Source: Candidatus Gastranaerophilales bacterium (GTDB lineage: Bacteria > Cyanobacteriota > Vampirovibrionia > Gastranaerophilales > Gastranaerophilaceae). Taken from it: a stretch of DNA of 34,413 nucleotides. Position numbers and translations under genes: made by a program. A model generated the notes under the pieces. That model saw only the letters and a program-made list of their open reading frames with translations, was not told the origin of the DNA and ran no database searches. This document shows, piece after piece, positions 1 to 34,413 of this stretch; within the stretch, counting starts at the first letter, position 1, and each line of letters starts with the position of its first letter. The stretch lies in assembly GCA_947587615.1 (NCBI GenBank), contig CANPYC010000022.1, positions 1-34,413 on the forward strand. Direction: 5' to 3'.

Positions 1-1217
1 GAGTAGCAATAACTACCGCTCATGTAATATCCTGAAGGACATGAAGTACAAGCTCCTGTTGTACTTGAACATGCTGAGCATTTACCATAAGAGGAGTTGC
101 TGCAACTTGTAGAGCCTGATGTACCACCGGGACAATAGCTGCCTGAAGGACATGATTTGCAATAACTACCGCTCATGTAATATCCTGAAGGACATGAAGT
201 ACAAGCTCCTGTTGTACTTGAACATGCTGAACATTTACCATAAGAGGAGTTGCTGCATGCTCTAGGACCTGCAGAGCCACCCGTACAATAATTATTTGAA
301 GTACAACCGTAACATGTACCACCGCTATAATAGTAGCCGGAGTTACAGCTTTGAGTACAAGTGCCTCCGTTGTATGAGCAATAAGAACAGTGTTTATATG
401 ATGAACATGATGAGCAGGATGAAGCACCTCCTGTTGAATATTTACTTGAAGAACTTGAAGCGCTTCCACAAAGGTTTTTTGTTTGGGTGCTTCCCGATTG
501 ATAACATTCATAACCCGCAGGACAGTTATAACATGTTGTACTTCCTGCGTAAGACCATTTACCGTTACCGCAAGGAGATTTAGAACCTCTTGAACATGTA
601 TAACCCTCAGGGCAATTTATTGTACAAGAATTTGCACCTTCATTAGACCACTTTCCGTCAGGACAATATTTTTTTATACCGTTTTGGCAATAATAACCCG
701 CAGGGCATCTTGAACAGCTCGACATTCCTGCACGGTCGGTATAATAACCCGAATCGCATACTTTACAGTCATGATACCCTGTTGAATATTGCCCTGTTGG
801 ACATTGTTTACAATAGGGAGAGTTGATTGGTGTTAAACCATAACCTGATGTACAGGCGTTGCACTTTTCTTCAGTACAAGAAAGACAATTGCCTCCATAA
901 GTAGAAGAGCATGTTTTACATACACAATCAGCCGTGCTTTTATATTGATCTGCAGCACAGCCTAATGTACAAACCAGACATTTTGATTTTGAACATAGTG
1001 TACATTTTTCATTTGGGAACTTTTTGATACATTTTGCGCTGATATTATCAGCTAATTTCATCACGGCTCTGTTTGACTTAATTTTTTTTGTAGCAATCGG
1101 CATAAATGCAGCAAGCATTACAGATACTACAATAATAGCAACCATGAGCTCGATTAGGGAGAATGCCTTAAAAAATTCCAGACATACTACCCCCTTGTTT
1201 TTTCGTTTTTCTACCAT
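1..1217 (-). CDS. Prepilin-leader protein with long Cys-rich repeat domain (partial, C-terminus off the left edge)
   Basis: An uninterrupted minus-strand frame runs from ATG at 1217 to the window edge (405 codons, no stop), preceded by AAGG six bases upstream. The N-terminus is a class III prepilin leader: a basic stretch, then KA before FSLIELMVAIIVVSVMLAAF, the usual Phe+1/Glu+5 hydrophobic helix. Cleavage would follow Ala rather than Gly. After about residue 70 the protein becomes very Cys-rich, with repeated C-P-x-G-Y-Y-x-C and C-x-x-C units such as CPAGYYCQNG and CPTGQYSTG. These resemble GCC2/GCC3 or ephrin-receptor-like and EGF-like modules of eukaryotic surface proteins. Two copies of a 51-residue unit lie at the left end. 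A pilus-associated or surface-anchored protein is inferred; the function is unknown. It is divergent from the XRE gene at 1371. Confidence 0.85.
   Translation of the reverse strand, partial: MVEKRKNKGVVCLEFFKAFSLIELMVAIIVVSVMLAAFMPIATKKIKSNRAVMKLADNISAKCIKKFPNEKCTLCSKSKCLVCTLGCAADQYKSTADCVCKTCSSTYGGNCLSCTEEKCNACTSGYGLTPINSPYCKQCPTGQYSTGYHDCKVCDSGYYTDRAGMSSCSRCPAGYYCQNGIKKYCPDGKWSNEGANSCTINCPEGYTCSRGSKSPCGNGKWSYAGSTTCYNCPAGYECYQSGSTQTKNLCGSASSSSSKYSTGGASSCSSCSSYKHCSYCSYNGGTCTQSCNSGYYYSGGTCYGCTSNNYCTGGSAGPRACSNSSYGKCSACSSTTGACTSCPSGYYMSGSYCKSCPSGSYCPGGTSGSTSCSNSSYGKCSACSSTTGACTSCPSGYYMSGSYCY
6..257 (-). repeat. 153-bp tandem repeat inside the Cys-rich gene
   Basis: Positions 6-104 and 159-257 match over 99 bases with one difference (g/a near 78/231). 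The period is 153 bases, which is 51 codons, so the reading frame is kept. Copy number beyond the left edge cannot be seen. Near-identity at DNA level implies recent expansion or conversion. Confidence 0.9.
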
Positions 1218-1370: not shown

Positions 1371-1697
1371 ATGGGAAATATAAAAATATTATTCGGTAAA
1401 AAAATAAAAGAACTTAGAAGAAAACACAATCTTACTCAGGCAAATTTGGCTGAGCTTGTAAATGTTGACAATAAGCACATAAGTTGTATAGAAAGCGGGA
1501 AGAGTTTTCCTTCGGCGGATTTAATCGAGCGATTAGCACAAGCACTCAAGGTTGAACCTAAAGACTTGTTTGAGTTTTATTATTTACAGGATGAAAAAGA
1601 ACTTAAAGACGACATTGTAAAAATTCTTGCAATGCTTAATAAATATGAACTTTCTTTAGCGCATAAATACATTAGAACTTTTTTATTAAACAGTTAA
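1371..1697 (+). CDS. XRE-family helix-turn-helix transcriptional regulator
   Basis: This 108-residue protein has a Cro/C1-type HTH at about residues 7-65. The first helix contains KKIKELRRKHNLTQANLAEL, followed by the recognition segment VDNKHISCIESGKSFPS and the hydrophobic closing helices LIERLAQALKV and DLF. The C-terminal 40 residues are helical and may mediate dimerisation. GAGG sits seven bases before the ATG. The gene is divergent from the Cys-rich prepilin gene, and repeated boxes at 1260-1326 lie between them, so it probably regulates itself and perhaps that neighbour. Its stop overlaps the 3' end of the convergent gene at 1694 by four bases. Confidence 0.85.
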   Translation: MGNIKILFGKKIKELRRKHNLTQANLAELVNVDNKHISCIESGKSFPSADLIERLAQALKVEPKDLFEFYYLQDEKELKDDIVKILAMLNKYELSLAHKYIRTFLLNS

Positions 1698-13291: not shown

Positions 13292-13891
13292 CTATTTTGG
13301 TTTAACTTCCGTACCGTCTTTGTCATACTGTATTCCTTCAGCGCCAATAGGTATAACAAATTGGTCTTTACCTCTTAAATTCGGTTCGTCTTCTCCGTTT
13401 ACGTCAAAATAAATTGCGCCAAGACCCGGAGTTAGGGTTTTTTCCGTAGTTTCACCGGGGAATATTGTATTCAGTGCGGCAGCTGAATCAATAATAGCCA
13501 TATAAGAACCGTCTTTTAAGAAAAATGCGTTGGCATCATCAGCTGAAGTATTGTATTTACATTTAACTCCTTTGGTATCTTTTCTTATGGCTACAAGATA
13601 CATCTGATAAAGTTTTTTTACGTTTGCACCGCTACCCGTATAAGAAAATGAAGCTTCCCCTTTACCCTGGTTTAAAAGAAGTTTATCAAATTTTCCTTCT
13701 CTTGTATTATTAACAAGAATTTGAGTTGTAGCTGTGTCAATTTGACCTAAGATTTTTTTGGATAATACAACTAAGGCCTTGTCTCTGTATTCCGTCGGTT
13801 TTAAGGTGGTAATCATAATTGTTGCGATGATACCAAGTATCATCATTACAAGGACAGCTTCTGCCATTGTAAACGCTCTTTTAATTCTCAT
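13292..13891 (-). CDS. Prepilin-like protein A2, 199 aa
   Basis: The leader MRIKRA precedes FTMAEAVLVMMILGIIATIM, a pseudopilin helix with Glu+5 and Ala at -1. The globular part ends GAIYFDVNGEDEPNLRGKDQFVIPIG, a D-x-N-G-x-x-x-P-N-x-x-G-x-D tail that may bind a cation. Positions 13329-13883 are identical to 14703-15257, so this gene and A1 differ only at their extreme ends (QYDKDGTEVKPK here, QYDLTGTDVAVK in A1). AAGGAG lies unusually far (15 bases) before the ATG. It is probably exported and assembled by a type IV pilus or type II secretion machine encoded elsewhere. Confidence 0.85.
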   Translation of the reverse strand: MRIKRAFTMAEAVLVMMILGIIATIMITTLKPTEYRDKALVVLSKKILGQIDTATTQILVNNTREGKFDKLLLNQGKGEASFSYTGSGANVKKLYQMYLVAIRKDTKGVKCKYNTSADDANAFFLKDGSYMAIIDSAAALNTIFPGETTEKTLTPGLGAIYFDVNGEDEPNLRGKDQFVIPIGAEGIQYDKDGTEVKPK

Positions 13892-15257
13892 TATTTTGTG
13901 TTTTAACTCCTTTAAAATAATACCAGTTTTTAAATATCACCGTTTGTATATTTAATTCCACGCTTATAGAGTGGTAAAACATACTGATCACTGCCCAATT
14001 TATTGGGTTTGTTTTCTCCGTTTATATCAAAAAATATTGAAGCGCAAACGTTAGGTTGAGTGTATCTTCCTCTTTGTAATGACGGGTTTGTGTTTAATTC
14101 CGTCGCTTCGCAGCTTCCGTAGCTTCTAAAACCGATTAGTGTTCCGTCCTGAGCAAAAAAGAAGTTTTTATACGTTTCTTCTAACGTTACTCCGATTGGA
14201 GTTTTGTCATAATCCTTTATCGGAGCCGTAAAATATTCCACACTTACGTTGGGTTGTCTGTCAAGATATAGAATATATTTTTTAAATATTTCAGCAAGTT
14301 TAGCTTCATTATGAGGGTCTGCTATTGAGAATTTTTCTCCGGAGTCAAGATTGATTATGGTTAAATCGTCTAATGAGCAATCGTGTTGCAGGATATGCCC
14401 TATGGCTTCGGTAAAATATTCCTCCATTTTTTTTGCCCGTGTATCAAACCCTCTTTGTCTCGGGTTGAATATTTTAAGCTGAGGAATTGCTATCATCATA
14501 ATTATTCCGAGTATTACCAGTGTCAGTAATACTTCGGGTAAGCTAAAAGCCTTCTTTGTTTTTTTGTAATGATTATTCTTCATAATGCTATAATATAACA
14601 TTATCTGCTTTTTTTATATTGATTTATTAAAAGCTCATACTTTTGATGTAATTATTTTTATTTAATTATTTAACCGCTACATCTGTACCCGTAAGGTCGT
14701 ATTGTATTCCTTCAGCGCCAATAGGTATAACAAATTGGTCTTTACCTCTTAAATTCGGTTCGTCTTCTCCGTTTACGTCAAAATAAATTGCGCCAAGACC
14801 CGGAGTTAGGGTTTTTTCCGTAGTTTCACCGGGGAATATTGTATTCAGTGCGGCAGCTGAATCAATAATAGCCATATAAGAACCGTCTTTTAAGAAAAAT
14901 GCGTTGGCATCATCAGCTGAAGTATTGTATTTACATTTAACTCCTTTGGTATCTTTTCTTATGGCTACAAGATACATCTGATAAAGTTTTTTTACGTTTG
15001 CACCGCTACCCGTATAAGAAAATGAAGCTTCCCCTTTACCCTGGTTTAAAAGAAGTTTATCAAATTTTCCTTCTCTTGTATTATTAACAAGAATTTGAGT
15101 TGTAGCTGTGTCAATTTGACCTAAGATTTTTTTGGATAATACAACTAAGGCCTTGTCTCTGTATTCCGTCGGTTTTAAGGTGGTAATCATAATTGTTGCG
15201 ATGATACCAAGTATCATCATTACAAGGACAGCTTCTGCCATTGTAAACGCTCTTTTA
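13329..15257 (-). repeat. 555-bp identical direct repeat (13329-13883 and 14703-15257)
   Basis: The two segments are offset by 1374 bases and show no difference by eye, including third codon positions. They cover nearly all of prepilins A2 and A1, while the gene between them (B) is not duplicated at DNA level. Confidence 0.93.
13930..14601 (-). CDS. Prepilin-like protein B, 223 aa
   Basis: The leader, KKTKKA preceded by a basic stretch, meets FSLPEVLLTLVILGIIMMIA, a pseudopilin helix with Glu+5 and Ala at -1. The middle is acidic and helical. The C-terminus has SIFFDINGENKPNKLGSDQY, the same D-x-N-G-x-x-x-P-N-x-x-G-x-D signature as A1, A2 and C. It lies between the duplicated A1 and A2 genes with gaps of 64 and 38 bases, suggesting one transcript. 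A second in-frame ATG six codons in (MKNNHYKK) is an alternative start. Confidence 0.85.
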   Translation of the reverse strand: MLYYSIMKNNHYKKTKKAFSLPEVLLTLVILGIIMMIAIPQLKIFNPRQRGFDTRAKKMEEYFTEAIGHILQHDCSLDDLTIINLDSGEKFSIADPHNEAKLAEIFKKYILYLDRQPNVSVEYFTAPIKDYDKTPIGVTLEETYKNFFFAQDGTLIGFRSYGSCEATELNTNPSLQRGRYTQPNVCASIFFDINGENKPNKLGSDQYVLPLYKRGIKYTNGDI

Positions 15258-15271
15258 GTTCTCGTAAGCAT
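14666..15271 (-). CDS. Prepilin-like protein A1, 201 aa
   Basis: This is the first gene of the prepilin run. The leader MLTRTKRA precedes FTMAEAVLVMMILGIIATIM, with Glu+5 and Ala at -1. The body and the FDVNGEDEPNLRGKDQF tail are identical to A2. AAGGAAA lies about eight bases before the ATG. The upstream spacer (15272-15438) is AT-rich, with a TATAAT-like box on the minus strand near 15340, and is shared with the divergent radical SAM gene. Confidence 0.87.
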   Translation of the reverse strand: MLTRTKRAFTMAEAVLVMMILGIIATIMITTLKPTEYRDKALVVLSKKILGQIDTATTQILVNNTREGKFDKLLLNQGKGEASFSYTGSGANVKKLYQMYLVAIRKDTKGVKCKYNTSADDANAFFLKDGSYMAIIDSAAALNTIFPGETTEKTLTPGLGAIYFDVNGEDEPNLRGKDQFVIPIGAEGIQYDLTGTDVAVK

Positions 15272-34035: not shown

Positions 34036-34413
34036 ATGAACAAGAGAAAATTTTTATTAGCAAGTACGCTGTTAATTTGCTTTAGTGCGCAATATGCCTT
34101 GCCTGTTTTTGCAGACCATAACGACGTATTTAACGGCAGCACCGGCGGAACCGTTACACTCCATGGAGACGGTACAGGAAGCGTAACAAATAACGGTAAA
34201 GGTGATGTTGAATTAAAAAGTGACGTTGGAAATCGTAAATTTACAGGCTCTCTTAAAAATAAAGGCGGCGGGAAGTTTACAAATAACGTTAAAGTCGAGG
34301 TAAATAACGGTGATGTGATTGAAAACACAGGAGAAAGCTCAACTTTTACAAATAATAGCGGTATAACTGTCAATGAAGGCGGTTCTTTAACAAATTCAGG
34401 CATATTTAATAAC
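34036..34413 (+). CDS. Exported Asn/Gly-rich repeat protein (partial, 5' end only)
   Basis: An open frame of 126 codons runs from ATG at 34036 to the window edge, with AAGGA eight bases upstream. The signal peptide is MNKRKFLLASTLLICFS...LPVFA, cleaved before DHND. The mature part is rich in Asn, Gly and Thr, with short repeats such as TNNGKG, NNGDVIENTG, TNNSG and EGGSLTNSG. This is typical of parallel beta-helix adhesins or autotransporter passenger domains. The family cannot be fixed from the fragment. A minus-strand frame over the same bases is a shadow. Confidence 0.8.
   Translation, partial: MNKRKFLLASTLLICFSAQYALPVFADHNDVFNGSTGGTVTLHGDGTGSVTNNGKGDVELKSDVGNRKFTGSLKNKGGGKFTNNVKVEVNNGDVIENTGESSTFTNNSGITVNEGGSLTNSGIFNN

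Follow-up and report, generated by a model that had tools for sequence, protein, structure and literature searches.

A cysteine-rich modular prepilin of Gastranaerophilales as a probable member of a genus-specific, diversifying repertoire of type IV pilus adhesins

Modular type IV pilins are known from Streptococcus sanguinis, and an adhesin role was shown for two of them, PilB and PilC (PMC8179133, PMC9934059). A survey of modular pilins distinguishes 264 architectures; the available part of this survey does not name a cysteine-rich Eph/TNFR-like module among them (PMC8179133). The Legionella protein Lcl has a C-type-lectin-like head and binds sulphated glycosaminoglycans (PMC11162425). The domain DUF1566, which has a C-type lectin fold, is the commonest target domain of diversity-generating retroelements (DGRs), and pilin-like fusions have been mentioned earlier in this context (PMC6642488). 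In addition, type IV pilus genes have been reported in other Gastranaerophilales (PMC5877343). Our partial coverage of the literature yielded no prior report of the gene family described here.

The window, that is the whole stretch of 34,413 nucleotides which was analysed, is the entire contig C22 of a Gastranaerophilales genome of 2.13 Mb (81 contigs, 99.55% complete). As the sequence-only reading had pointed out, an open frame on the minus strand (positions 3–1217) runs without a stop codon up to the contig end. It is the 5′ portion of a gene for a modular prepilin rich in cysteine, with 53 Cys in 405 amino acids, and has an in-frame continuation in contig C55. Leftward extension did not reveal any frameshift: the terminal 77 nucleotides (1–77, minus strand) are an exact suffix–prefix match to the first 77 nucleotides of C55, as a k=77 assembly graph predicts, and the joined frame stays in phase up to its stop codon, yielding a protein of at least 736 amino acids with 91 Cys. 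This length is a minimum because repeat units were possibly collapsed in the assembly, which breaks in a near-identical tandem Cys repeat with a unit of 153 nucleotides or 51 amino acids (6–290, minus strand; TRF, 1.9 copies, 90% matches). The repeat number of the full-length protein is uncertain, the join being a 77-nucleotide assembly overlap inside this repeat. The other contig end truncates a secreted-looking gene start with Asn/Gly-rich repeat sequence (34036–34413, plus strand). We consider it probable that the prepilin gene belongs to a repertoire of modular type IV pilins that is confined to one genus, and that these pilins act as surface adhesins, are diversifying and are mostly individually regulated.

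The leader of the gene reads KA^FSLIELMVAIIVVSVMLAAFMPIATKK and has the features of class III leaders, namely Gly/Ala at −1, Glu at +5 and a hydrophobic helix of about 21 residues. The helix after the predicted cleavage site A18^F19 (1083–1163, minus strand) contains Glu5 (E23) and Pro22 (P40); the AF2 model places a helix at residues 21–43, with low confidence there. TIGR02532 scores 18.9 bits on this leader, which is above the cut-off of 16.3, and the Pfam model N_methyl scores 20.2 bits, slightly below its cut-off of 21.2. Moreover, the S, E and P columns of the leader do not vary among all 21 aligned relatives. The earlier claim that a class III leader is joined to Cys-rich repeats holds. 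The leader also contains a rare-codon motif, TTYTCNCTARTCGAG (window 1149–1163, minus strand). Among 28 genomes of the genus, five contain this motif, with 14 occurrences in total, each at a leader position of the family. A general recombination site at the leader was rejected, as TTYTCNCTARTCGAG is found in these 5/28 genomes and in no others.

The genome of the window encodes PilD (C1:58411), a secretin–PilB–PilC run (C1:76–82 kb) and two PilT-like ATPases (C1:108 kb and C4:69 kb). Since these components are encoded, export of the cysteine-rich prepilin by a pilus machine appears plausible. Many large proteins with an N_methyl leader are not known to have a pilus role, and the sole secretin operon found could serve a type IV pilus or a type II secretion system. 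Both points would fit a reading in which the leader is only a membrane anchor or a pseudopilin signal for type II secretion, with the Cys-rich proteins stalked on the inner membrane or the surface of the cell and outside the pilus. We regard this as unlikely, because Glu5 and Pro22 are both invariant, because PilT-like retraction ATPases are encoded and because PilB and PilC of S. sanguinis set an example of large modular pilins that are part of a pilus (PMC8179133, PMC9934059). Against the pilin–adhesin reading counts that about 50–90 Cys are a heavy load for pilus assembly. Ordinary pilins are encoded in a cluster at 12.4–15.3 kb of the window, without a divergent HTH gene. Two genes of this cluster (13292–13891 and 14666–15271, minus strand) are identical in 574 of 585 nucleotides, 555 of them in an exact match, which points to a recent duplication or conversion.

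The leader is followed by a conserved N-terminal Cys module with 12 invariant Cys columns in alignment A1 (801–1031, minus strand) and by a Cys repeat of the ephrin-receptor-like or GCC2–GCC3 type (693–788, minus strand; PF07699 with E=7e-5, and Foldseek). In the window protein ephrin_rec_like (PF07699) scores 22.9 bits and is 0.2 bit short of the gathering score of 23.1, which is exceeded in the relatives L079 (27.0 bits) and L013 (79.3 bits). A sequence search of the PDB gave a weak match to the Chlamydomonas mastigoneme, and Foldseek led from the AF2 model, which is reliable only for residues ∼60–200 and poor beyond (mean pLDDT 53), to the mastigoneme, to ELAPOR1 and to the EphA2 CRD. Pfam, the PDB search and Foldseek are thus concordant with the Eph or GCC2–GCC3 type of repeat originally proposed. 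The multigene family, the lectin-like heads, the paired regulators, the gene conversion and the DGR of a sister species, all described below, had gone unnoticed in that reading. A 2402-amino-acid frame (L028) in G044, a genome of another family, also has ephrin-like Cys repeats, followed by Ca-binding-like repeats; no prepilin leader was seen in this frame.

The range of the family was determined with the profile A1, which covers the leader and the first Cys module and has 15 invariant columns. By this profile the family is present in 11 of 386 genomes of the phylum, all of which fall into one Gastranaerophilales genus out of 142 genera. When the window protein itself is used as query, a match is found in 26 of the 27 other genomes of the genus. 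Five genomes contain 40, 28, 21, 14 and 6 matches to A1, respectively. The arrangement is also conserved: of 58 related genomes, 31 give a match, and the loci analysed contain 67 distinct leader proteins. In complete members, a linker of ∼20 residues connects the leader with the N-terminal Cys module; Cys repeats that vary between members follow, and the C-terminus is of several kinds. By profile A3, 33 of 55 complete members have one to four Lcl_C-like heads, 3 have Gly-rich ends and 19 have other ends. The additional modules of the relatives are not pilus-specific; they are ephrin_rec_like over the gathering score (L013, L079) and Lcl_C heads, with Lcl_C (PF07603) over the Pfam cut-off in L099, L083 and L013. 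Neither Pfam, hmmsearch nor the Lcl_C-like profile detected Lcl_C in the C-terminus of the window gene, that is the C55 tail, and the search gave no Lcl_C match anywhere in the genome of the window. By hhalign the tail aligns weakly with an Lcl_C-like head (E 1.5e-4, probability 52%), so that the head of the window gene may at best be a very divergent relative of the Lcl_C head. Carriage by phages or plasmids was rejected, as scans of IMG/VR, of phages and of plasmids did not reveal the family. In genome G008 there are also short leader genes (loci L113, L114, L115, L117, L118) of ∼96–117 amino acids with 8 Cys and the same C-x-C-E end; in L113 and L114 the short gene immediately precedes a long family gene, with which it likely forms a two-gene unit.

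Two further contigs of the genome of the window end inside sequences of the family. The end of contig C41 falls within a leader and has an exact stretch of 77 nucleotides in common with the window gene; from the leader onwards the identity is 99.1% over 115 nucleotides, and in the 150 nucleotides upstream the similarity is at the level of shuffled DNA. Contig C33 ends in another Cys-rich 3′ part which has 71 exact nucleotides in common with C55. Thus, two or more paralogues of this genome are mosaics which differ in their C-termini and whose 5′ flanks are unrelated.

The unrelated 5′ flanks of the paralogues largely consist of the regulator and promoter of each copy. In the window, a gene for a Cro/CI-type (XRE) HTH regulator (1371–1697, plus strand; HTH_3 46.1 bits and HTH_19 47.6 bits, both over the cut-off) is oriented divergently from the prepilin gene, and the intergenic region (1218–1370) by its position presumably contains both promoters. 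It had been expected that homologues would lie next to pilus genes. This pattern is absent; instead, the copies are scattered, each adjoining its own HTH regulator to the following extent. Among the 88 leaders with at least 450 nucleotides of upstream sequence, 63 have a divergent Cro/CI-type HTH gene directly upstream, as judged with an HMM that was trained partly on the counted set, and an HTH gene on the same strand only was seen in 0/88. Control genes of at least 180 amino acids have a divergent HTH gene in 1 of 77 cases (Fisher p=1e-23 versus the family). Eight weaker HTH matches were put through Pfam, and seven of them are over the HTH_3 cut-off. Of the 25 family genes without HTH match, some have another small HTH gene (e.g., MerR) and others lie in tandem behind a family gene. 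Since most copies are paired divergently with an HTH gene of their own, of the Cro/CI type, each could be switched separately.

The copies of the sister species G025 are otherwise divergent and yet have exact stretches of up to 206 nucleotides in common. In a test that keeps the match rate of each column constant, the identical runs of 11 among 78 pairs exceed the simulated length at the Bonferroni level; column rates were used because Sawyer's runs test ignores rate variation. The long runs lie within the first 600 nucleotides, far from the heads. In genome G020, seven contig ends are near-identical from the leader onward and the upstream DNA is unrelated. Stalk segments pass between paralogues by gene conversion. 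Assembly breaks are frequent in the genus because contigs end inside the family leaders. Gene conversion between copies, together with in-frame stops in the leader fragments of G008 and assemblies that break in leaders, would also be expected for antigenic variation of the gonococcal pilE/pilS type, in which one site is expressed and the donors are silent. We consider such a system quite improbable here, as nearly all copies have their own start codon, an unrelated 5′ flank and mostly their own regulator, and thus the donors are not silent by structure; in addition, the short open reading frames of G008 share their end point and resemble a paired short gene. Finally, a pilin leader misjoined in the assembly to a Cys-rich gene of foreign, perhaps eukaryotic origin can practically be dismissed, for although the contig is of the metagenome type and the gene ends at a repeat break, the architecture is common to 67 distinct leader proteins on many contigs of independent genomes and the family is limited to one genus.

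In addition to gene conversion of the stalks, the modular pilins are diversified at their heads in a sister species. Reverse transcriptases of the RVT_1 type are present in 5 of 12 genomes that were examined. The DGR locus of G025 comprises in this order the 3′ end of a target, Avd, the reverse transcriptase and two template repeats with many AAY codons; the reverse transcriptase is over the RVT_1 cut-off, and Avd matches NF033474 with E=7e-13 but stays below the 80 bits of the curated cut-off. On other contigs, the 3′ ends of five family genes match template 1, and 102 of their 136 mismatches are at template adenines as compared to 27% expected (p=4e-31). In L111 of G025 all changes (18/18) are at a template adenine, as are 6 of 6 changes in L172, the target end beside Avd at the end of the DGR contig. 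Almost all DGR changes in G025 affect codon positions 1 and 2. Altogether there are at least six targets, five of which are confirmed family members. The G025 DGR therefore hypermutates the lectin-like heads of several modular pilins. About 200 nucleotides past the stop codon of L104 (G025:C17) a second family leader (MKKGFSVLE) is found, and the 3′ region contains a possible stem–loop which is common to several copies, as expected near DGR targets.

In G010, Avd and a reverse transcriptase are immediately downstream of a family gene, and behind the reverse transcriptase lies a repeat of 213 nucleotides (L171:2818–3030) which has 92% identity with the 3′ end of the neighbouring prepilin gene. 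Of its 16 mismatches, 12 are at T (binomial p=6.6e-5) and 13 at codon position 1. As this repeat is T-biased and has no adenine bias, G010 was rejected as a proven DGR. In G022, Avd and a reverse transcriptase are present and no repeat was found nearby. The reverse transcriptases L174:26–1624 (G017) and L175:1451–2332 (G002) are retron-like, the one of G017 resembling the RT-TIR and RT-Toprim retron types. The genome of the window (G000) gave no RVT_1 match at E≤0.01, and a DGR acting in this genome was rejected for lack of a reverse transcriptase. Of the features described, the window copy shows the leader and the stalk as well as the pairing with a regulator, but its head is divergent, and a DGR reverse transcriptase is missing from its genome. 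Because its genome has neither RVT_1 nor an Lcl_C match, the DGR part of the mechanism described below is not applicable to the window copy as assembled.

Thus, we suggest the following mechanism for the modular pilins. The prepilin peptidase would cleave after A18, and the helix with Glu5 and Pro22 would become part of a type IV pilus or pseudopilus, with the tip as the probable site. There, a disulphide-bonded Cys-rich rod would hold out a variable C-terminal head, often of the C-type-lectin-like Lcl_C kind, which might bind a glycan or a protein. Each copy could be expressed independently or exclusively through its own regulator. Gene conversion reshuffles the stalk segments, and a DGR hypermutates several heads in at least one species. 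More tentatively, each regulator–prepilin pair might be a bistable switch, such that a cell displays one or a few adhesins out of tens, and new heads would keep arising through gene conversion and, in some species, through a DGR with several targets; the repertoire would then be a pilus-borne bacterial counterpart of the variant surface protein repertoires of protozoa, an idea that we put forward as possible rather than probable.

How gut Gastranaerophilales, uncultured relatives of the cyanobacteria, attach to the host, to mucus or to other microbes is little known, and the family is a concrete candidate for this role. The candidate is a large, fast-changing repertoire of type IV pilus adhesins with one small regulator for most adhesins, in which two known routes of diversification, gene conversion and hypermutation by a DGR, meet on one pilin family. 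Expression in single cells and ligand binding of the candidate adhesins are now directly testable.

As modular pilins, Lcl heads, DUF1566 targets of DGRs and pilin-like fusions are already known, the family is not a new category. With PilB and PilC of S. sanguinis it shares the class III leader with Glu5, the pilin helix and a large non-pilin module, which is a binding module in PilB and PilC; it differs in its Cys-rich Eph/TNFR-like stalk, in its dozens of paralogues and in the divergent HTH gene of most copies. The repeats resemble those of Eph receptors, TNFR and the mastigoneme protein Mst1 (PF07699) in spacing and fold, whereas the window family is bacterial and anchored by a leader, and both homology and convergence could explain the likeness. 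Legionella Lcl has the same stalk-and-head design with a DUF1566/Lcl_C head (PMC11162425). However, its stalk is collagen-like and trimeric and it has no pilin leader, in contrast to the Cys-rich stalk and pilin leader of the window family, and Lcl-CTD is without disulphides whereas the heads of the window family are Cys-rich. Finally, the DGR of G025 agrees with the known DGRs that target DUF1566 in having Avd, a reverse transcriptase, a template repeat and adenine-specific changes at the 3′ end of C-type-lectin-like targets (PMC6642488). It differs from these in that several targets are located on different contigs, in that the targets are modular pilins with leader and Cys-rich part and in its occurrence in Gastranaerophilales, where it is proven in one species only.
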